Virus record (IMG/VR): IMGVR_UViG_3300045996_001800
Coordinates: 1 to 33,871 of that record
From: a virus
Strand: one strand, 5' to 3'
DNA: 33,871 nucleotides
The position numbers and the translations under genes are program-made. The notes below the pieces were generated by a model. That model did not search any database and was not told where the DNA came from. It was given only the letters and a program-made list of their open reading frames with translations. Every line of letters begins with the position of its first letter. Position 1 is the stretch's first letter. Positions 5,155 through 31,975 of the stretch are shown here, piece by piece.

Positions 5155-5463
5155 TCAGTCGAGCGGGCAGGGAATCGCGAGCGACGGCAGCCCTGGCAGC
5201 GGGGGCAGGCTCAGCGACGGGAGGGGCAACCCAGGAATTGGCAGCTGAAGCGCCAAACTGAGGCCCGGGATGTCAATCCCAAGTGACGGGAGGCCGGGTA
5301 TCGCCGGCAGCGTCAGAGACGGCAGCGGAAGCCCGGGAATGGGCAGCTGCAGCGCGAGCGACAGTCCCGGAATGTCGATGCTCAGTGACGGCAGCGACGG
5401 AATGGCCGGGAGGCTCAGCGATGGCAGCGGAAGCCCCGGAATGGGGACCGCGAAGTTGCACAA
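5155..5463 (-). CDS. Pro/Leu-rich tandem repeat protein, unknown function
   Basis: A 102-residue protein made almost wholly of a 34-residue repeat: residues 7-40, 41-74 and a partial third copy 75-102. The unit runs PIPGLPLPSLSLPAIP, then SLPSL-IDIPGLSLALQL. Residues alternate between hydrophobic and small/Pro. There is one early Cys and a final CPLD. The only in-frame start is TTG 5463, with no clear ribosome binding site. The DNA copies differ mostly at synonymous positions while the amino acids are kept, which argues that this frame is genuinely translated. It lies in the baseplate/spike region, so a spike-tip, hub-plug or repetitive rod role is possible. I do not recognise the family. Confidence 0.6.
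   Translation of the reverse strand: MCNFAVPIPGLPLPSLSLPAIPSLPSLSIDIPGLSLALQLPIPGLPLPSLTLPAIPGLPSLGIDIPGLSLALQLPIPGLPLPSLSLPPLPGLPSLAIPCPLD
5158..5445 (-). repeat. Three tandem copies of a 102-bp coding repeat
   Basis: Copies at 5445-5344, 5343-5242 and 5241-5158 (last one truncated) encode the 34-residue units of the Pro/Leu-rich protein. Copies are diverged at third codon positions, so the duplication is not recent. Confidence 0.75.
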
Positions 5464-5511: not shown

Positions 5512-6027
5512 ATGCGAGGCAGTGAGGTTTTGAAGAGTTTGGTGAGCGGGTGCGTTGTTTACGCACTCGTGATGGCGTGCTCATCGTCTGGTGGAGACGG
5601 TGGCAACACGACTGGCACCGATACTGGCGGCGTCACCGGTATGAACGGTAACGCTGGCTCGAGCTCGGGCGCGTCGATGGGAACCGGTGCCGTTGCGATG
5701 GCGGCCGGCGGGGACACGGGCTCGGGGACTTGTGAGTGTCCGGAGGTGGAGCCACCGGTTGAGATCACGGTCGATTGCGAGGCGAGCTATCAGACGCAGC
5801 TCTGGGCGGAGCTGACGATCCCTGGCGCCAAGGCTACCGACCTGGCGCGAATCAAGGCGGTAACCTTCTACGCCAACGGGAACTCGCTTGTTGGTACGCC
5901 GGGCGAATACAAGTACGCGCTGGCAACCTCGCTCGCATTCAAGGTGGACACGGTTGCTGCCCAGTGCTGGGGCGACAGGGCAACGTTCGTCCTGCCAGCG
6001 GACATTGCGGAGAAGGTGGCCCAGTGA
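5512..6027 (+). CDS. Secreted lipoprotein, plus-strand cargo gene
   Basis: A 171-residue protein on the strand opposite to the tail operon. Residues 1-23 form a lipoprotein signal peptide: a short basic start, a hydrophobic core (GCVVYALVM) and a lipobox ending MACSSS with the lipidated Cys at 23. A Gly/Ser/Thr-rich linker (about residues 25-72) follows, then a Cys-containing stretch (GTCECPEVEPP) and a folded domain of about 90 residues with two further Cys. Long linkers of this type are common in myxobacterial lipoproteins. A TTGACG box at 5475-5480 is a possible -35 element; the start could also be TTG 5530. The gene overlaps the next plus-strand gene (stop/start 6024-6027). It is not a known structural protein. 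As phage cargo it may alter the host surface, for example superinfection exclusion, but this is inference. Confidence 0.75.
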   Translation: MRGSEVLKSLVSGCVVYALVMACSSSGGDGGNTTGTDTGGVTGMNGNAGSSSGASMGTGAVAMAAGGDTGSGTCECPEVEPPVEITVDCEASYQTQLWAELTIPGAKATDLARIKAVTFYANGNSLVGTPGEYKYALATSLAFKVDTVAAQCWGDRATFVLPADIAEKVAQ

Positions 6028-6752
6028 AAAAAGCCGCGCTTATCGCAATCGGGGCGGGGATCGCTGTCGTTGGCGGCACGGCGTTTGCTCTAACTCAGGA
6101 GCCTGTGCAGGCAACGATCCGTGGACTAACCGGGAACGAGTCTGCGGCAGATGTCCTGCGCAAATACTGGGGCGCCGAGCGCTGCTCAGACCGTACCGAG
6201 TTCATTCTCAGCCCGGACGAGAACAAGAAATTCCTTGACGAGCATTACCGTAACGGGTGCTCGTCAAAGTTCACGATTTCGGATTCTGCGCCGTGTGAGA
6301 AAGAACTCGGTGTCGGAAAGTCCTGCCTAATCGACGCCAAGGATGAGCGAGGCCAGGGGCACTACTACTGCATGACCTTGACAGAAGGCGGTTTTAAGGT
6401 CGACTGGCAGTGCTCGGTGGGATTTAGTCCGATTCCGATTGCCGCCTTCAAAGCACAGCGTGCGCCAAAATCAGAGTCCACTGTGCGCGCGATCGTTCGC
6501 CTGTCCGACATGTTCCCTTACGAAGTGCGGCAAGCGCAGGACCAGTTGCTGTCTATCTATGTCGGAGACGAAACCGGGAACAGCCTGTACGCGCTGGTTA
6601 AGAAAGACAGCGAAGATGGTAAGAAGTTCTTTGATGCGCTAAAGGACGGGCGAAACCATGCGTTGACCGTCAAGATTTCTTACCCAGAGCGCATCAACTC
6701 GGCAGACTATGCTCTTGGGTTTTGGGTCAAGGACGGGTGGGAATCCAACTAA
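6024..6752 (+). CDS. Exported or membrane-anchored protein, plus-strand cargo gene
   Basis: A 242-residue protein starting at GTG 6024, which overlaps the stop of the lipoprotein gene as GTGA, so the two are probably co-translated. The N-terminus (VKKAALIAIGAGIAVVGGT) is a signal peptide or membrane anchor. The rest is soluble, with Cys residues near 60, 84, 94, 106, 121 and 133 that could form disulfides in the periplasm, and a C-terminal half containing VRAIVRLSDMFPYEVRQAQ and LSIYVGDETGNSLYALVK. Base composition looks less GC-rich than that of the tail genes. The stop TAA (6750-6752) overlaps the stop of the convergent spike gene. No family is recognised; it probably acts with the lipoprotein in the envelope. 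Confidence 0.75.
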   Translation: MKKAALIAIGAGIAVVGGTAFALTQEPVQATIRGLTGNESAADVLRKYWGAERCSDRTEFILSPDENKKFLDEHYRNGCSSKFTISDSAPCEKELGVGKSCLIDAKDERGQGHYYCMTLTEGGFKVDWQCSVGFSPIPIAAFKAQRAPKSESTVRAIVRLSDMFPYEVRQAQDQLLSIYVGDETGNSLYALVKKDSEDGKKFFDALKDGRNHALTVKISYPERINSADYALGFWVKDGWESN

Positions 6753-18503: not shown

Positions 18504-18994
18504 TACTCAGCCTTGCCGGGCTTCTTCTTGACCGCTTCGGCCTTGATTGCCCGCTCTTCGGACTGTGCCGCAGCCTTTGCTGTTTCCTGGATCAGCTGCT
18601 CCGCGGCCTTCGCGTCCGCTTCGAGCTCGCTGATCCGCTGCTCGCACTTGGCAACCTTGTCCCGCAGGAGACGGGTCTTGCCCCGCTCGGTGTCAAGCTC
18701 AACCAGAGTCGCATCGAGCTGCTCTTTGCTGGCTCTCGCGGCGCCCTTTGCCTCGTCCGCTTCGCGCTTAAGAGCCTGGAAAGCGCCTTTCGACGCCTCC
18801 TCCTGCTCTTCTGCGAGCCGTCGCGTAGCCCTCACTTCTGGGTCAACAGGAGCGGGGCCAAGAGGCAGACCTCGGCGCTTGCACGCTTCGGCCTGCCAAG
18901 GCTCAAGGTCGATGCTGCCCCATGGCTCGCAAGTGAACGTGTGTCCGCTCATGCGCCATTTTAGGGCGTGTTTCGTCTGGTTGAATTGCAGCAT
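18503..18994 (-). CDS. Coiled-coil protein with N-terminal capsid-associated motif
   Basis: A 163-residue protein. Start chosen at ATG 18994 (TGATG overlap with the previous gene) in preference to the in-frame TTG one codon before. The first 50 residues include KHALKWRMSGHTFTCEPWGS and then a Pro-rich link. Residues 55-155 form a long highly charged coiled coil (EEQEEASKGAFQALKREADE and onward, rich in Ala/Glu/Lys), ending in KKKPGKAE. Lying just after the capsid and repeat genes, it may be an internal or scaffolding-type virion protein. No family is recognised. Confidence 0.6.
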   Translation of the reverse strand: MLQFNQTKHALKWRMSGHTFTCEPWGSIDLEPWQAEACKRRGLPLGPAPVDPEVRATRRLAEEQEEASKGAFQALKREADEAKGAARASKEQLDATLVELDTERGKTRLLRDKVAKCEQRISELEADAKAAEQLIQETAKAAAQSEERAIKAEAVKKKPGKAE

Positions 18995-26220: not shown

Positions 26221-26402
26221 CACGCGACCCTGGCCAGTTCGGTACCGTTCGGAGTCTCGTCAGCGGGCACGTTCAGCGCGCAGGCCAGTGAGAAACCGAA
26301 GAGCCAATCAGCCAACTCGTGCGCCGTGGCACACTTGCGGACTTGGCCGGTAGCGCCAGCCGTAAACGCGGAGTCGCCTTCGAAAATGTCGGTGTCGAAC
26401 AT
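26220..26402 (-). CDS. Small protein at head of the packaging operon, unknown
   Basis: A 60-residue protein. Start taken as ATG 26402; an in-frame TTG at 26417 would place the start within the conserved regulatory element. It reads MFDTDIFEGDSAFTAGATGQ and contains helices (HELADWLFGFSLACALNV). The ATG lies only 5 nt from the end of the bipartite element at 26408-26441; if that element is a promoter, the transcript would be leaderless. First gene of the packaging transcript; unknown function. Confidence 0.55.
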   Translation of the reverse strand: MFDTDIFEGDSAFTAGATGQVRKCATAHELADWLFGFSLACALNVPADETPNGTELARVA

Positions 26403-26407
26403 CAGGC

Positions 26408-26441
26408 GACTGTGCAAGAAACGGAGGGGTTTCCTGGGTGG
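26408..26441 (-). promoter_or_regulatory. Bipartite element copy 1 (upstream of packaging operon)
   Basis: Minus strand CCACCCAGGAA (26441-26431), exactly 15 nt, then GCACAGTC (26415-26408). It ends 5 nt before ATG 26402. The same blocks and spacing occur at three other sites. The layout (GGAA box, GTC box) resembles ECF-type promoters; see findings. Confidence 0.6.
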
Positions 26442-26503
26442 AGCCTCGGAAACGGTGCGCTGTTGCGAAGCAACTCCTTGTCCCGATTAGATAGGCAGTA
26501 ATT

Positions 26504-26526
26504 GGCAGCACTTCGCGGGTGCCGCC
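26504..26526 (-). terminator. Hairpin downstream of tRNA-Asp
   Basis: On the minus strand GGCGGCAC (26526-26519) pairs with GTGCTGCC (26511-26504) around a 7-nt loop, with one G-T wobble, 16 nt after the tRNA. No T-run follows (AATTACTG), so it may be a processing or intrinsic stop of limited strength. Confidence 0.4.
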
Positions 26527-26541
26527 TCATCCCATCACTAG

Positions 26542-26616
26542 CGTTCTCAGCGGGATTCGAACCCGCGGTCTCCGACGTGACAAGCCGGCGTCAGTTCCAG
26601 ACCTGACCGTGAAAAC
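26542..26616 (-). tRNA. tRNA-Asp(GTC), CCA not encoded
   Basis: A complete cloverleaf can be drawn. The acceptor is GTTTTCA (26616-26610) with TGAGAAC (26549-26543), including one T-G pair. The D-stem is GTCAG/CTGAC with loop GTCTGGAA. The anticodon arm is CCGGC-TTGTCAC-GTCGG with anticodon GTC, the variable loop AGACC, and the T-arm GCGGG-TTCGAAT-CCCGC. The discriminator is G as in all tRNA-Asp, and no CCA follows. Position 8 is C and the 14th base G instead of the near-universal U8-A14. It is phage-encoded, between the early genes and the packaging operon. Confidence 0.85.
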
Positions 26617-26933
26617 ATGGCGGCCTCAGGTGCAAGCGAACCGCCCACCAGACCGAAAGATTGGCTGGGTCCGCCGTAACGAACCCTCAACTGTGCCCGC
26701 ACCGTGGCGGGTCAGCTCTAAGACTTACCGGTTCGCCGCCACTGGGAGGAGCCGGGCAACGTCAGCGCGTACCGGTGCGCGCAGGGGCGACCTGGAGGAA
26801 GGTGGCGCCGGAGTAGTGCCGGTTTTCGCTGCCGCAGAATGTGTGAGGCGCGGGCTGACCGGAGCGAACCGAGTGCGAGGGTAGCGACCCCTCATGTCCT
26901 AGAAACCAAACCGCATTGCCGCAGTGGTCCCGG
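26617..26933. other. About 0.3-kb noncoding stretch upstream of tRNA-Asp
   Basis: No convincing gene on either strand. A few short inverted repeats are visible: TGACCGG/CCGGTCA (26856-26862 with 26930-26936, overlapping the end of the HTH gene; total span 81 nt, tRNA-like in length), a GAGGG/CCCTC 7-nt-loop hairpin within it, and a 7-bp GTGGCGG/CCGCCAC repeat near 26705-26743. TTCG-containing T-arm-like strings occur (for example GGTTCG at 26868-26863 on the minus strand), but no second cloverleaf could be completed. Possibly decayed tRNA genes or a regulatory RNA. Confidence 0.45.
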
Positions 26934-27236
26934 TCACTCCCACCAGCCCATTTCCTTGGCCAGCTTCTGCAGCGCAGACCAGCGCACCACACGCGTTTTC
27001 ACAGCCCGTCCGCCATTGGGCCCGGGGCGGATGGCGATGTTCCCAATCCCAGCCTTCACGAGCATGTCCCGCATCGTCCGTTCTGGCATATCCAGGATTC
27101 GCGCCAGTTCGATGGTCGTGAACTCCGGGTCAGTGCCAGAGCGCTTGAACTCCAGGTCTTCCTTAAACAGACGCTTCATTCGAGCCTGACCGGCGTCACG
27201 GCGCTTGTCGTTCTCCTCTCGCTGCTTTGGGGTCAT
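26934..27236 (-). CDS. Helix-turn-helix DNA-binding protein
   Basis: A 100-residue protein. ATG 27236 overlaps the zinc-finger gene stop (ATGA), which decides the start. It has a basic helical N-terminal third (KQREENDKRRDAGQARMKRL). Residues 46-68 (FTTIELARILDMPERTMRDM) form a helix-turn-helix, followed by a wing-like VKTRVVRWSALQKLAKEMGW. Probably a transcription regulator or replication/packaging co-factor. It is the last gene before the noncoding stretch and tRNA, near the early/late boundary, so control of late genes is possible. Confidence 0.65.
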   Translation of the reverse strand: MTPKQREENDKRRDAGQARMKRLFKEDLEFKRSGTDPEFTTIELARILDMPERTMRDMLVKAGIGNIAIRPGPNGGRAVKTRVVRWSALQKLAKEMGWWE

Positions 27237-27607
27237 TTTGCCGCCTTTCGTTTCTTGCCAGCACGTCCGAACCGCCGCGACCGGTGCTGCATGTTGATGT
27301 CTCCGCCGCACGAAACGCACAGGTCGAAAGTCTCCGCGCATGAATCGCAGAGCACCGGGCATGACGTGTTCGGGTTCATTCCCTCAGCAGAGCAAAGCCG
27401 ACACCTCCAGCTCGTGAACGCCTGCCCCGAGAGACCGTACGAGTAATGGCAACCCTTGCACTCGTGAGCCGCCAAGCGTCGTTCCTTGGCACCGTCACCT
27501 GCGATCCATGCAGCCTTTGCCAGAACATCGCTGACCTTCTTGTGGCTGTAGGAACTGACGGTGTTAACCCGCTCCAACTCGTCCAGAGACAATCTGGTAG
27601 CTTTCAT
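27233..27607 (-). CDS. Multi-zinc-finger protein
   Basis: A 124-residue protein. Start ATG 27607 overlaps the upstream stop (ATGA). The N-terminal half is helical (LSLDELERVNTVSSYSHKKV). The C-terminal half contains at least four Cys pairs: HECKGCHYSY, WRCRLC, CPVLCDSC, LCVSCGG, enough for two zinc sites, and a basic end (RRFGRAGKKRKAAK). The pattern suggests an RNA- or DNA-binding zinc protein. It lies in an operon of small regulators upstream of the HTH gene. Family not recognised. Confidence 0.65.
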   Translation of the reverse strand: MKATRLSLDELERVNTVSSYSHKKVSDVLAKAAWIAGDGAKERRLAAHECKGCHYSYGLSGQAFTSWRCRLCSAEGMNPNTSCPVLCDSCAETFDLCVSCGGDINMQHRSRRFGRAGKKRKAAK

Positions 27608-27963
27608 GCCGCCACCTGCCGTTTCGCAGCCGCATAGAAGGCCTTGTGTGCAGCAGCAACCTTGGTCTCGGCCGGTTCCTGTTCGCGGTTCGTGTACCAG
27701 ACCCGCAACACCCCGTAGTGATGCTCCGGTACCAGTCGCAGGATCGCGAACAGCCGCCGCATCCGCTTCGCCTCGTGAAGGTTGATGATCGGCTCGTCTG
27801 GCTCGGCGCTGATCTCGGCGCCCAGTTCGATCACGTCTTGGATCGCGCCCTGTGACGACTTCAGCCCGGCGTGCTTGTCGGCCTCGTGAAAGAACCACCA
27901 CAGGTCGGAGCTGTACTTGAGGGTGTCGGGTCCGGTTTGCTCGGGGAATGTTGGGCGAGTCAT
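27604..27963 (-). CDS. Small regulator-like helical protein, unknown
   Basis: A 119-residue protein. Start ATG 27963 overlaps the previous stop (ATGA). It is helical: YSSDLWWFFHEADKHAGLKS, then INLHEAKRMRRLFAILRLVP and HHYGVLRVWYTNREQEPAET. The L-x(2)-L-x(2)-H-x(2)-VL-x(3)-YT pattern is reminiscent of small phage regulators such as late antiterminators, where a helix followed by an aromatic turn precedes the DNA-binding part, but no full motif is present. Operon context (next to zinc-finger and HTH proteins) supports a regulatory role, weakly. Confidence 0.55.
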   Translation of the reverse strand: MTRPTFPEQTGPDTLKYSSDLWWFFHEADKHAGLKSSQGAIQDVIELGAEISAEPDEPIINLHEAKRMRRLFAILRLVPEHHYGVLRVWYTNREQEPAETKVAAAHKAFYAAAKRQVAA

Positions 27964-28196
27964 TCGCCTTCCTCAATCAGCAAACGCGCAGCCCTCAGCT
28001 TGATCTCGTCGTTGGTGTTGCGACTCAGCGAGTGGGCGAATTTCTCAAACAACTGCAACCCATCCTCTGTCGACCACGCTCCAACAGGGACCCCATACTC
28101 ATCTGAGACCGAGACATAAGCCGCAGCCAGTTCATCGTCACCGCGCACCACCGTCAGCCGATAGAACGCAGTGGTCTCTAGGATATTCGTAAACAT
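27960..28196 (-). CDS. Small protein at head of regulator operon, unknown
   Basis: A 78-residue protein. Start ATG 28196 is favoured by GAAGGAG 6-7 nt upstream; a TTG further upstream would lie inside the bipartite element. The sequence starts MFTNILETTAFYRLTVVRGD, with a short beta region (AAAYVSVSDEYGVPVGAW) and a helical acidic end (DEIKLRAARLLIEEGE). It is the first gene after element copy 2 and overlaps the next gene (ATGA). No function is recognised. Confidence 0.6.
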   Translation of the reverse strand: MFTNILETTAFYRLTVVRGDDELAAAYVSVSDEYGVPVGAWSTEDGLQLFEKFAHSLSRNTNDEIKLRAARLLIEEGE

Positions 28197-28231
28197 CACC
28201 ATCTCCTTCGCAGCCCTAACGCCGCTCCAGA

Positions 28232-28265
28232 GACAGTGCCTCAACTGTTAGCGATTCCTGGGTGG
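28232..28265 (-). promoter_or_regulatory. Bipartite element copy 2 (upstream of regulator operon)
   Basis: Minus strand CCACCCAGGAA (28265-28255), 15 nt, GCACTGTC (28239-28232). It begins 1 nt after the stop codon of the upstream gene and is followed by the strong ribosome binding site of the gene starting at 28196. Confidence 0.6.
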
Positions 28266-28266
28266 G

Positions 28267-28566
28267 TCAGGATTCGTAGCCATGCTGCCCGAGTTTAACG
28301 ACGCGCGGAGCCGTGAATGCCAACTCGACCAAGAAAGGCATCCCAAGCGTGTCAACGACACGCAGCGGCTTCCCTGAGCACAGCCGCCGAAACCTCTCGC
28401 GTTCACTGGCAGACATGCGCCAGGCCTGGAGATGGTCACGATACCGCCTGTAGAGACGAACGCGTTTGGCATGTTCACGGGCCATCCTGCGGCGATGCAC
28501 GCGGGCGCTCCGGTGGGTCTTGCCTAACTCGTTGATTAGGCCCCATGTAGCTTTTTCGCTAACCAT
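28267..28566 (-). CDS. Basic Arg-rich protein, unknown
   Basis: A 99-residue protein. Start ATG 28566 has GGAGAAAAGG upstream and overlaps the preceding small gene (TGATG). The first half is very basic (THRSARVHRRRMAREHAKRV and RLYRRYRDHLQAWRM), likely nucleic-acid-binding helices; the second half is a small domain (PLRVVDTLGMPFLVELAFT). Family unknown. It ends immediately before element copy 2. Confidence 0.6.
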   Translation of the reverse strand: MVSEKATWGLINELGKTHRSARVHRRRMAREHAKRVRLYRRYRDHLQAWRMSASERERFRRLCSGKPLRVVDTLGMPFLVELAFTAPRVVKLGQHGYES

Positions 28567-28700
28567 CACCTTTTCTCCTGATTGCACGCATGCCACATCC
28601 AACACCGCTCACACAGGTAAGCCCGGACCCGAAACCGCGCGTGTTTGTTCCCGGCTCGGCACGCGTGAGCGGAGGGGTAGGCGCGTTTGGGGCAGGTCAT
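28566..28700 (-). CDS. Small Cys/His-rich protein
   Basis: A 44-residue protein with ATG 28700 (ATGA overlap) and TGA 28566 (TGATG overlap). It is Arg/Cys/His rich: MTCPKRAYPSAHACRAGNKH, then a CERCWMWHAC cluster giving a possible zinc site (C-x2-C with C3 and C14). The length and coupling on both sides indicate a true small gene. Function unknown; possibly a small zinc-binding regulator of host or phage nucleic acids. Confidence 0.55.
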   Translation of the reverse strand: MTCPKRAYPSAHACRAGNKHARFRVRAYLCERCWMWHACNQEKR

Positions 28701-29059
28701 GAACAGACCTCGGCCACCGCAACACACCGCGCCTCAAGGTGAATCGAGTCCATCGTTATGCCCCACGGGTCACAAGTTGAGCTGCGCGTAGGCAATGGCG
28801 GCGGCGACCATGGCGGCGAACCTGCTGCTCGGTACTCGTCACATGCATCTCGCCATGCGCGCCATGCGTCATCCGCAAAGATGATGAATGATTTGTAGCC
28901 GTCACCGCTGTCGTAGAAGCGCGGCGGCCCGAACTTGCAGACCGTGCACCGGACGTGGTGGTGGAAACAGCCAGCGCCTGCGTAATTCGCCGTCTTCTTC
29001 ACCGCTCCGTCGCACCGTGGGCAGATGTCCCTCCGATGCCGTCGTTTGGCGTTGCTCAT
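28697..29059 (-). CDS. Zinc-finger protein, Lar-like
   Basis: A 120-residue protein. Start ATG 29059 overlaps the stop of the next gene upstream (ATGA), preferred over ATG 29074. CPRCDGAVKKT followed by VRCTVCKFGPPRF is a C-x2-C...C-x2-C ribbon, with ADDAWRAWRDACDEY after it; this is the layout of Lar-type (restriction alleviation) proteins, in which a zinc ribbon is followed by a helix with W-N/R. The C-terminal third has no recognised domain. If Lar-like, it could modulate host restriction. The assignment is tentative. Confidence 0.55.
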   Translation of the reverse strand: MSNAKRRHRRDICPRCDGAVKKTANYAGAGCFHHHVRCTVCKFGPPRFYDSGDGYKSFIIFADDAWRAWRDACDEYRAAGSPPWSPPPLPTRSSTCDPWGITMDSIHLEARCVAVAEVCS

Positions 29060-29346
29060 GGGCGATTTCTCCATTTCCCAATGCGTGCCACAAGCGACGG
29101 CACCGTGGATTCAGCCCACTTCTGGGCCCGATCCAGCGAATCAAACTTGCGTCGCCGTGTTTCAGTGACCCCTGGTCCCATTTCGCAAAGGCTCACTGAG
29201 ACGACGGTGGTGTAGTAACCGTGAGGTCCGTCGTCCCACATGCTTTCGATTGGATATGTCCTGGCGATGACTCCTTCGCGCTCGCTTTCCCAGAGCCGCG
29301 CAAACGTCTCGCCGTGAACGCGCGGCTCCCATCGCGCGCTAAACAT
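29056..29346 (-). CDS. Small phage protein, unknown
   Basis: A 96-residue protein. I place the start at ATG 29346, which overlaps the previous gene by 8 bp; GTG 29352 and upstream codons are alternatives. The start reads MFSARWEPRVHGETFARLWE, with YYTTVVSVSLCEMGPGVTET as a beta region and RKFDSLDRAQKWAESTVPSL as a helix. It resembles a small alpha/beta domain. No family is recognised. Confidence 0.5.
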   Translation of the reverse strand: MFSARWEPRVHGETFARLWESEREGVIARTYPIESMWDDGPHGYYTTVVSVSLCEMGPGVTETRRRKFDSLDRAQKWAESTVPSLVARIGKWRNRP

Positions 29347-29545
29347 GGGCACCCGAACCACCAGGCCCATCATCCAAGTCCGCAGCTTTCGCCGATGCCC
29401 AGAACGCGCCAAGTAGCAGAACCATCGCAGCGAGACCGAACGCGACATTGTCCGGCTTCTCGGCAGTGAGCGAGATGATGGTCATGACCAGGGAGCCAAG
29501 ACCGAAGCAGAACGCGCAGGTTACTAGGGTTCGGAGGTGGGTCAT
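29339..29545 (-). CDS. Small membrane protein with two predicted helices
   Basis: A 68-residue protein. Two hydrophobic stretches: LRTLVTCAFCFGLGSLVMTI (about residues 4-23) and VAFGLAAMVLLLGAFWASA (about 34-52), followed by an acidic/Gly tail. The start ATG 29545 overlaps the previous gene stop (ATGA). Two-helix proteins of this size occur among holins and exclusion proteins; there is no endolysin in the window to support a lysis role. Confidence 0.6.
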   Translation of the reverse strand: MTHLRTLVTCAFCFGLGSLVMTIISLTAEKPDNVAFGLAAMVLLLGAFWASAKAADLDDGPGGSGAHV

Positions 29546-29751
29546 GACACGGTCTCCACGATCACCGCTACCGCCACAGCGACCGAGGCAATGGCTGCCA
29601 CGACGATTCCGAGAGTGCCGATGACGCTCGCATCAATCTCATCAACACCAACCTGCTTGCAGAACCAGGTGATTGACCTGTGATGAAGCGTCAGGAGAAA
29701 CGGTAGCGCGACCATGAAAGCCAACGCCTCCAGGAGTGCGACGATGATCAT
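29542..29751 (-). CDS. Small membrane protein, second of pair
   Basis: A 69-residue protein from ATG 29751 (ATGA overlap with the lipoprotein gene). It begins MIIVALLEALAFMVALPFLL (first helix), then a polar loop (HHRSITWFCKQVGVDEI), then SVIGTLGIVVAAIASVAVAV (second helix). It is adjacent to another two-helix protein and a lipoprotein; together they look like an envelope-acting cassette. The function is unknown; holin-like by topology only. Confidence 0.6.
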   Translation of the reverse strand: MIIVALLEALAFMVALPFLLTLHHRSITWFCKQVGVDEIDASVIGTLGIVVAAIASVAVAVAVIVETVS

Positions 29752-29978
29752 GGCGCGCACCTGCAAAGCCAGTCGTCACCTTCGCGAGTGAGTTTCTGTT
29801 TGGAGTGGTCGCATGAAACCTGGTCCGCCTTGTTGCGCTCGACACTGAAGCGCCTGTCTTCGCAGCTCCATCGCGGGCCGCCGTCTATGTAGTCGCACCC
29901 TGAAAACAGCACAGCCAGGAACAGCAGGCATCCGGCCGTTAACGCCGCCAGCCATGCCAACTCTTTGATCTCGCTCAC
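29748..29978 (-). CDS. Small lipoprotein
   Basis: A 76-residue protein starting at GTG 29978 (GTGA overlap). The N-terminus (VSEIKELAWLAALTAGC then LLFLAVLFSGC) is a lipoprotein signal with lipobox LFSGC and lipidated Cys 28. The rest is polar with five further Cys (WSCEDRR, VSCDHSK, WLCRCAP). Such small lipoproteins in phages include outer-membrane spanins and exclusion proteins. The two membrane-protein genes downstream strengthen an envelope role. Not matched to a family. Confidence 0.65.
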   Translation of the reverse strand: MSEIKELAWLAALTAGCLLFLAVLFSGCDYIDGGPRWSCEDRRFSVERNKADQVSCDHSKQKLTREGDDWLCRCAP

Positions 29979-30256
29979 GCGCCACCCCCCAGTCGACGGC
30001 ACTCGGCGCGGAGGGAGTCGAGTTGCTTTTCTAGTTGCTCGATCCTGGTGTCGCGCGGGTCTGCGGCTTCTGCATAGAGCTCGACAATCTCATCGCGCTG
30101 CAACGCCTTGATGAGACGTTCGAATTCGCCGCCGTAGAACTGCTGCCTGAACATGATCCCACAGTGAATTAGCGTTGGGTCGCTCTTGTCGCGCTCAACC
30201 TTGGATATCTTCCCGTACGCAGCCAACTGCTGCTTCAATGCGCCCATCCCACACAC
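29975..30256 (-). CDS. Small coiled-coil protein, unknown
   Basis: A 93-residue protein from GTG 30256, preceded by GGAAAG 6 nt upstream; ATG 30247 is the alternative. The N-terminal part (ALKQQLAAYGKISKVERDKS) leads into a middle region with MFRQQFYGGEFERLIKALQR, and the last 25 residues form a coiled coil (DTRIEQLEKQLDSLRAECRR). It is the first gene after element copy 3 and is linked to the lipoprotein gene (GTGA). Function unknown. Confidence 0.55.
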   Translation of the reverse strand: MCGMGALKQQLAAYGKISKVERDKSDPTLIHCGIMFRQQFYGGEFERLIKALQRDEIVELYAEAADPRDTRIEQLEKQLDSLRAECRRLGGGA

Positions 30257-30289
30257 CCATCACTTTCCGCAGCTCTTCGCCGCGGGAAT

Positions 30290-30323
30290 GACTGTGCCGG
30301 ATGTGGAGGGGTTTCCTGGGTGG
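30290..30323 (-). promoter_or_regulatory. Bipartite element copy 3
   Basis: Minus strand CCACCCAGGAA (30323-30313), 15 nt, GCACAGTC (30297-30290). It starts 7 nt after the methyltransferase stop and lies 33 nt from the start of the coiled-coil gene. Confidence 0.6.
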
Positions 30324-30330
30324 GTGAAGG

Positions 30331-31935
30331 TTAGGCGGCCATCTCGGACCAGTGAGCAATCCGAGCCCGAGCGATCGCCGTGTACTCATCGGACAATTCA
30401 CAGCCGACGAAGCGGAAGCCTTCCAGAGTTGCGGCGCATCCTGTTGAGCCGCTGCCTGTGAATGGATCCAGGACCAGGCCACCGACTGGCGTGATGAGAC
30501 GACAGAGCCAGCGCATGAGGTCGATGGGTTTGACGGTGGGATGGCCATTCGCTCCAATGAGCCCGGCATTTCTCTCCCGCTTGCTCGACTTCGCAGTGTA
30601 GAAGAACCGCGACGGCCCACCATTGTCGCCGCGCGCTGTTTCGGTCGAATCGATCGCGCCGAACATGCCCAGCGTCGCGTCCGGGCGATGCTTGCCGCCG
30701 CTCTTCATACCTGGACGGTTGCCGGCTTGGGCATCGAGGATGGCGCCGGCTTCTTCGTCAAGGATGAGGTTGGCTGGCCAGCGGCCAAGGTTGCAATTGA
30801 AACCCTCGCTGGTGGTCTGTTTCCCATACACGTTGCCTTGTGACCGATGGACCGCACCATCAGCACCACACGGTGAGCGCCTTCCGCTGTGGTCAATCCT
30901 ACACCCGTCGACATTCACCGCCCCCGTCCCCCATTCAGTGAAGTTCGCGGCTAGTGTCCCTGGAAACGGCTTGCGCGCCAGGATGATTGGCTCATGGGCT
31001 GGCTTAAGCGCAACGTTCCACCCCTCGCTGTTTTTGACGGGATTCCACGTAGCATCTCCGAGAGCAGTAACAATCCGGATGCGCATCGAGTTCGCGGATC
31101 CTGCGTTCAAATCTGGACCCGCATAGATTACAGGCCACCGTTCGCCATCGTTCAGGATCTCGCTGACTGGCGTGGTGTTCCCGGATGTGTGAAGACCAGT
31201 CAACCAACTCCAGGTTTTCTCGTCGGTTATCATCTCGCACGCCGTTGATGTGATGGACCTGCTCGCCTCTTTCGAGGCGTCGGCCAAGCTCTCGCTCGAC
31301 AATGACGTCGTGCTCAAGCCGGTAGCCGTGAGCAGTTCGGATCGCAACGTATCCGTCAGAGCGCACAAAGCGACCTCCGCCCCAGTTACCGTTAGCAGGG
31401 CCAGATCGTCCCCTGGCAGGATTTGAACAAGCGCGGCTGCAATAGGTTCCTTCCCCACGCTTGATCTGACTTGGATAGACTTTGAAGTTTGCACCGCACG
31501 CGGGGCACTCTCTGTTGATTGACATATTTCCGCCTGTAATAGCTGATTGGTAATGTTGAGCCCCTTAGGAAACCCCTGGCCATGCAACCATTGCAACTGG
31601 TCGCGAATCTCAAACCCCGCCAGTCGCAACGACAGACCCATCACGTCGACCGTGCGCGAACCGGCGAACACCAACGCATGCGCGCCAGGCTTCAGTACGC
31701 GTAAAACCTCCCGCCACACTTCCGGGCCTGGAACGAACGCGTCCCATTCCTTGCCCATGAAGCCGCGGCCTTTGGCTTTCCACGGTTCACCAGCCAACCA
31801 CGCCGTCAAAACCTCATGCATGTCCGGCGGCTTCCCGAGTCCGTACGGTGGATCGGTCACGCAAGAGTCCACCGAGTTGTCGGCCATCCCGCGCAACGTT
31901 TCCAGGCAATCACCCTGAATCACTTCCCAGGTCAT
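30331..31935 (-). CDS. DNA methyltransferase interrupted by nested HNH gene
   Basis: A 534-codon frame. Residues 1-127 and 304-534 are a class-beta amino-methyltransferase: DSCVTDPPYGLGKPPDMHE (catalytic DPPY near residue 28), WKAKGRGFMGKEWD, QWLHGQGFPKGLN, then EGWNVALKPAHEPIILARKP, GHPTVKPIDLMRWL and the AdoMet-binding LVLDPFTGSGSTGC (185-198 from residue 304). Residues 128-303 do not look like methyltransferase and coincide with an HNH gene in another frame (31004-31525), a 528-bp insertion in multiple of three and without stops. The enzyme may methylate adenine N6 or cytosine N4 against host restriction. Whether the insert is spliced, tolerated or inactivating is not known. ATG 31935 lies 6 nt from element copy 4. 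Confidence 0.85.
   Translation of the reverse strand: MTWEVIQGDCLETLRGMADNSVDSCVTDPPYGLGKPPDMHEVLTAWLAGEPWKAKGRGFMGKEWDAFVPGPEVWREVLRVLKPGAHALVFAGSRTVDVMGLSLRLAGFEIRDQLQWLHGQGFPKGLNITNQLLQAEICQSTESAPRAVQTSKSIQVRSSVGKEPIAAALVQILPGDDLALLTVTGAEVALCALTDTLRSELLTATGLSTTSLSSESLADASKEASRSITSTACEMITDEKTWSWLTGLHTSGNTTPVSEILNDGERWPVIYAGPDLNAGSANSMRIRIVTALGDATWNPVKNSEGWNVALKPAHEPIILARKPFPGTLAANFTEWGTGAVNVDGCRIDHSGRRSPCGADGAVHRSQGNVYGKQTTSEGFNCNLGRWPANLILDEEAGAILDAQAGNRPGMKSGGKHRPDATLGMFGAIDSTETARGDNGGPSRFFYTAKSSKRERNAGLIGANGHPTVKPIDLMRWLCRLITPVGGLVLDPFTGSGSTGCAATLEGFRFVGCELSDEYTAIARARIAHWSEMAA
31004..31525 (-). CDS. HNH homing endonuclease nested out of frame in methyltransferase
   Basis: A 173-residue protein from ATG 31525 with GGCGGA upstream. 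An N-terminal zinc ribbon (CPACGANFKVYPSQ...YCSRACSN) is followed by GPANGNWGGGRFVRSDGYVA, RLEHDVIVERELGRRL, and the HNH core QVHHINGVRDDNRRENLELV with the HH pair and the Asn. A C-terminal zinc finger (CNLCGSRFERR...CYCSRRC) follows. This is a common free-standing phage HNH layout. It reads in another frame of the same strand as the methyltransferase and ends 22 nt into the methyltransferase coding sequence that resumes downstream. Confidence 0.9.
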   Translation of the reverse strand: MSINRECPACGANFKVYPSQIKRGEGTYCSRACSNPARGRSGPANGNWGGGRFVRSDGYVAIRTAHGYRLEHDVIVERELGRRLERGEQVHHINGVRDDNRRENLELVDWSSHIREHHASQRDPERWRTVACNLCGSRFERRIRELDAHPDCYCSRRCYVESRQKQRGVERCA

Positions 31936-31941
31936 GCATGC

Positions 31942-31975
31942 GACCGTGCCTGAGAAAGTTAGGTTTCCTGGGTGG
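31942..31975 (-). promoter_or_regulatory. Bipartite element copy 4 (upstream of methyltransferase)
   Basis: Minus strand CCACCCAGGAA (31975-31965), 15 nt, GCACGGTC (31949-31942). It ends 6 nt before methyltransferase ATG 31935 and starts 7 nt after the stop of the gene at 31983-32162. Confidence 0.6.

Follow-up and report, generated by a model that had tools for sequence, protein, structure and literature searches.

We describe a 34-bp two-box element, CCACCCAGGAA-N15-GCACNGTC, which occurs four times in exact form in the DNA of an uncultivated phage, always on the minus strand, always between genes, and always at the head of one of four co-directional units in the early region. From its sequence and setting we lean, with little more confidence than doubt, toward reading it as a lineage-specific class of phage promoter. 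The window analysed here is the entire IMG/VR record of 33,871 b, probably a genome fragment, and the motif scan therefore covered the whole of the available genome.

Sequence and statistics of the element

A search of both strands of the window returned four perfect copies: copy 1 at 31942..31975 (CCACCCAGGAA-ACCTAACTTTCTCAG-GCACGGTC), copy 2 at 30290..30323 (CCACCCAGGAA-ACCCCTCCACATCCG-GCACAGTC), copy 3 at 28232..28265 (CCACCCAGGAA-TCGCTAACAGTTGAG-GCACTGTC), and copy 4 at 26408..26441 (CCACCCAGGAA-ACCCCTCCGTTTCTT-GCACAGTC), all on the minus strand. The initial annotation of this DNA had reported four copies with a single orientation and a 15-nt spacing, and each proved to be exact at the coordinates given; the genome-wide search of both strands that it had proposed as a check returned these four perfect copies, all intergenic. 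Its description of a variable centre also stands. Whereas 18 of the 19 box columns are invariant across the four copies, the N15 spacers are invariant in 2 of 15 columns (C at spacer position 2 and T at spacer position 12) and have a mean identity of 44%. The copies are thus not merely recent duplicates of one another, with copies 2 and 4 having more of the spacer in common (10/15).

This pattern bears on the idea that the copies are recombination or boundary sequences around exchangeable cassettes, such as the methyltransferase cassette that lies between two direct copies. Direct repeats at cassette borders speak for this idea, and the spacer bases shared by copies 2 and 4 are in keeping with it, but homology borders would not hold an exact N15 while the spacer falls to such low identity, and the same borders are absent from relatives. 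We regard it as very unlikely. An artefact of chance or composition is hardly credible at all. The chance expectation for the element in the window is 0.04, even allowing up to three mismatches, none of 100 shuffled windows reached five element matches, and the placement of the copies is wholly intergenic; nothing at the observed copy number speaks for chance, and only the matches in bacterial genomes described below run at about its level.

A degenerate fifth copy, TGATCCAGGAA-ACAGCAAAGGCTGCG-GCACAGTC (18561..18594, minus strand), has three mismatches and the same spacing, retains the spacer C (position 2) and T (position 12), and is followed by GCGGGC at +6 after GTC. It is located within a structural-region gene, 57 nt ahead of the next start (18503); the end of the gene that carries the site is Ala/Lys/Glu-rich and coiled-coil-like. 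With a matrix built from the four perfect copies, the PWM score of this site is 20.7, and the best control scores were 16.3 in 200 Markov windows and 20.5 in 400 codon-shuffled coding sets. The fifth copy may be a weak working copy or a statistical oddity of coding sequence, and we count it as possible; its position within a gene speaks against the promoter reading.

Placement among the genes

The genes of this phage, whose starts are our own predictions, are read from the minus strand, most of them adjoining or overlapping their neighbours, and the elements stand at the 5' ends of gaps in this otherwise densely packed array. All four perfect copies are entirely intergenic, compared with 8.4% of 34-mers in that region, and they are restricted to the early region, where four of the five larger gaps are occupied; the nine gaps of the structural region hold none (one-sided p 0.005). 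Copies 1, 2 and 3 begin 7, 7 and 1 nt past the preceding stop, respectively, that of copy 2 being the stop of the methyltransferase ORF. Copy 4 lies about 100 nt past a tRNA-Asp gene (26616-26541), and both sit in a minus-strand stretch of 531 nt (26933-26403) without a clear gene.

Unit 1 consists of a DNA methyltransferase ORF alone (N6_N4_Mtase; 30331..31935, minus strand), which is the sole gene between copies 1 and 2. Unit 2 comprises small ORFs starting at 30256, unit 3 small ORFs from 28202 or 28196 through the gene for a winged-helix-like protein of 100 aa (26934..27236, minus strand), and unit 4 the ORFs from 26402 running to the terminase genes. The earlier wording that the copies stand ahead of early and packaging segments was therefore loose: copy 4 heads small ORFs, and the packaging part holds insofar as these continue into the terminase genes.

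Nested in another frame within the methyltransferase ORF (31935-30331, minus strand) is an HNH_3 endonuclease ORF (31525-31004, minus strand). The methyltransferase ORF remains open across it, with about 190 residues inserted between the conserved methyltransferase parts, and Rfam gave no intron match at the HNH_3 ORF, which may be a homing-endonuclease insertion.

The position of the copies directly after stop codons, together with the exact two-box spacing and single orientation, would also suit a set of operators, at which a phage regulator, whether repressor or activator, would contact both boxes from one side of the helix and switch or block transcription at the boundaries of early units, in the manner of cluster A mycobacteriophage stoperators, with transcription beginning elsewhere or at a weak overlapping promoter. 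The winged-helix-like protein whose gene precedes copy 4, at most a candidate regulator given its weak matches and single-sequence model, fits such a scheme. So does an isolated left box (TCACCCAGGAA) at 7522-7490 (minus strand), which lies in a 225-nt gap and belongs to a perfect inverted repeat, CAGGAACGC-N11-GCGTTCCTG, that is possibly an operator or a terminator. The boxes of the element are asymmetric, however, neither an integrase nor a repressor was recognised among the scanned window proteins, and the constant offset described in the following section is a feature of start sites for which an operator would have no need. On this evidence we hold the operator reading, the main rival of a promoter, to be somewhat unlikely.

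A constant offset downstream of GTC

In all four copies, 5-6 nt separate GTC from the next feature, which is ATG, GCGGCG, GCGGCG, and ATG for copies 1 to 4, respectively. The methyltransferase ATG lies 6 nt past GTC at copy 1 and the ATG at 26402 lies 5 nt past it at copy 4, in both cases without a Shine-Dalgarno sequence; these distances, like those from the preceding stops, agree with the ones first annotated. At copies 2 and 3 an inverted repeat, GCGGCG-N4/5-GCTGCG, begins exactly 6 nt past GTC, and its two occurrences in the window are the ones after these copies: GCGGCG-AAGA-GCTGCG at 30268..30283 (minus strand), followed by a start at GTG 30256 or ATG 30247, and GCGGCG-TTAGG-GCTGCG at 28209..28225 (minus strand), followed by AAGGAG and then ATG (28202 or 28196). 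The repeat has the potential to pair as a 5-bp hairpin with one G-U, longer at copy 2.

The simplest reading of this common offset suggests that transcripts start about 6-7 nt past GTC, and the shared distance to an ATG or a hairpin therefore lends support to the promoter reading. In such a promoter, an RNA polymerase guided by some specificity factor in place of the housekeeping sigma would contact CCACCCAGGAA on the upstream (-35) side and GCACNGTC on the downstream (-10) side; the factor could be a phage sigma or co-factor, encoded in genome sequence that the record lacks, or an alternative sigma of the host. Starting at that distance, the mRNAs of the methyltransferase ORF (copy 1) and of the ORF at 26402 (copy 4) would be leaderless, those from copies 2 and 3 would have short leaders, with a GCGGC/GCUGC hairpin first and then a ribosome site, and the element would split the early region into four co-directional transcription units. 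Leaderless mRNAs had been proposed from the outset, and the missing Shine-Dalgarno sequences at copies 1 and 4 support them to the extent of a suggestion, since many genes of this phage are without one.

Every copy is sense to the genes, and hairpins follow copies 2 and 3, and the element might instead act in RNA, as an intercistronic signal for protein binding, processing or translation initiation within a single long transcript of the early region. With flanks included, the copies do fold better than shuffles, to varying extents (z -1.4 to -3.4), but the 34 nt themselves have no common fold (z +0.4, +1.0, +0.8, and -2.6) and their boxes pair differently in each copy. Furthermore, Rfam matches only the tRNA, and at copies 1 and 4 the boxes are too distant from the start for a ribosome site. 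An RNA-level element thus seems to us quite improbable. The promoter reading accounts best for what is observed: the copies are intergenic, co-directional and repeated within one genome, as expected of a phage promoter set. The initial proposal of a phage-specific promoter or operator set is accordingly retained as the best fit to an intergenic, one-directional element heading four units, alongside the rivals weighed here.

Comparison with promoter classes

The upstream part of the element contains CAGGAA, a GGAA-type -35 box, in all four copies, and the distance of 20 nt from GGAA to GTC given in the initial annotation was borne out. For the ECF sigma factor Mtb sigma-H, the recognised sequence is GGAAYA at -34 to -29 and GTT at -11 to -9, with an optimum of 17 bp between them (PMC6411747). 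The geometry of our element is close to that of such two-box promoters, its spacer from GGAAAC to GTC being 18 bp, and it has in common with GGAAYA-N17-GTT an upstream GGAA box, a downstream GT-containing box, and rigid spacing (PMC6411747). It differs, however, in its conserved CCACCCA and GCAC extensions, in a GGAA-to-GTC distance of 20 nt as against 19, and in a start that, judged from the positions of the ATG and hairpin, would fall 5-6 nt after GTC as against 8 nt after the sigma-H downstream box. Nor does the downstream box have the form GTT/CGTC at a spacer of 16-17 bp that would mark an ECF -10, being NGTC with a variable N. In a duplex-stability profile the DNA is weakest in the spacer and of average strength between GTC and the presumed start, where ready melting is therefore not favoured; this is a further point for the operator reading. 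Because the spacer is 1 bp longer, the presumed start 2-3 nt closer, the box GTC rather than GTT, and the presumed melting region average, we do not class the element as an ECF promoter. The ECF resemblance pointed out initially thus fails as a classification, given the deviating spacing and inferred start, no ECF sigma gene recognised within the window, and no relative with the motif.

Sigma-70-like sites (TTGACA/TATAAT-like hexamers) number zero in 20-33.9 kb, compared with 2.2 in shuffles, and therefore something else probably starts these units. A sigma-54 promoter was considered and rejected on inspection: GGCAC resembles a -24 box, yet no copy has a correctly spaced -12 box. No gene for a sigma factor or RNA polymerase was recognised within the window, which counts against the promoter reading. 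The sole protein with a sigma-r4-like domain (25533-24928) was likewise rejected as a sigma factor; it is the small terminase, because in seven relatives its homologues are found immediately ahead of the large terminase or portal.

Comparison with known phage signals

Repeated transcription signals are not without precedent in phages. The phage-sigma promoters of phiEco32 and 7-11, those of 7-11 being low-copy and well conserved, are few, conserved, one-directional intergenic repeats heading gene units, much like the element described here, and were detected by comparing intergenic DNA with itself (PMC4331800). They differ in that theirs are motifs of about 9-12 bp (TAATGTATA, TGTGATGTTATA), whereas ours is a GC-rich 34-bp element with two boxes, and in that the present fragment shows no sigma gene. 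In cluster K mycobacteriophages, the 13-bp SAS signal lies 3-9 bp ahead of the start, and putative promoters are located within ESAS (PMC3203893, PMC11373665). These are also repeated asymmetric sequences just ahead of starts and mostly in one orientation, but ESAS contain a 17-bp inverted repeat around SigA-like hexamers, and neither this repeat nor GGGATAGGAGCCC is present in our element, which places it outside the SAS/ESAS group. The stoperators of cluster A mycobacteriophages are likewise asymmetric, oriented, intergenic sites along the genome; they are numerous single 13-bp sites bound by a known repressor, whereas the present element has two boxes and just four perfect sites.

In kind, then, the element is a new instance of something known, namely lineage-specific phage transcription signals. 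A more unusual system, in which a phage specificity factor unlike known sigma families would act at a 34-bp GC-rich promoter without an AT-rich -10 and give rise to leaderless and hairpin-capped mRNAs, is an unlikely one in our estimation.

Relatives and database searches

The portal and capsid proteins are 49% and 40% identical, respectively, to those of MW202476.1 (Manatee Spring), and alignments of both led to more than 20 metagenomic relatives, with capsid identity up to 74%; searches with the helicase or terminase alone found no relatives. In the whole records of these more than 20 relatives, the element, allowing up to three mismatches, was absent but for one genic site, which falls within an ORF of 815 aa on a 137-kb record, and no convincing comparable repeats were found. 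The relatives examined have the packaging and structural module in common but not the early genes, so the absence of the motif is no test of its conservation in a like context, and, as no relative has the motif, cross-genome conservation cannot serve as evidence. The absence of the element from relatives with the same structural genes does suggest that this group replaces its transcription signals far more quickly than its capsid module. In one relative (L064) a 12-mer, GAAGGCCGCCCG, recurs along with variants at four or more sites, all in a single orientation (positions 81, 1364, 7956, and 15146); these are possibly repeated terminators.

The exact motif had no matches in IMG/VR, and relaxing the spacing to 14-16 gave six single matches, one of them at the exact spacing. 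Among 84,980 bacterial and archaeal genomes the exact motif matched nine times, which is chance level since about 7.5 matches are expected (18 fixed bases, 257 Gb, both strands); both of the planctomycete matches that were opened lie inside genes. The pattern of right box plus hairpin gave 16 matches, none with the left box. A host search with the portal protein for prophages returned only weak, distant matches in 294 planctomycete and 398 pseudomonadote genomes.

If the copies do form a promoter set, they offer a handle on early-gene timing in an uncultivated lineage of contractile-tailed phages, whose portal and capsid are common to MW202476.1 and the more than 20 metagenomic records, and a test case for GC-rich promoters of a non-sigma-70 type and for leaderless phage mRNAs. 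The value of the element comes chiefly from its constant offset, which provides a sharp, testable prediction of start sites.

Other features of the tail region

Two opposite-strand ORFs are located within the tail region (5512-6752, plus strand). The ORF at 5512-6027 (plus strand) resembles a Gly/Ser-rich lipoprotein in a style that we presume to be associated with Myxococcota; it may be an extra gene of host origin, and hence a clue to the host. Nearby, at 5180-5445, a tail-region ORF contains three imperfect 62-nt direct repeats with a period of 102 nt.
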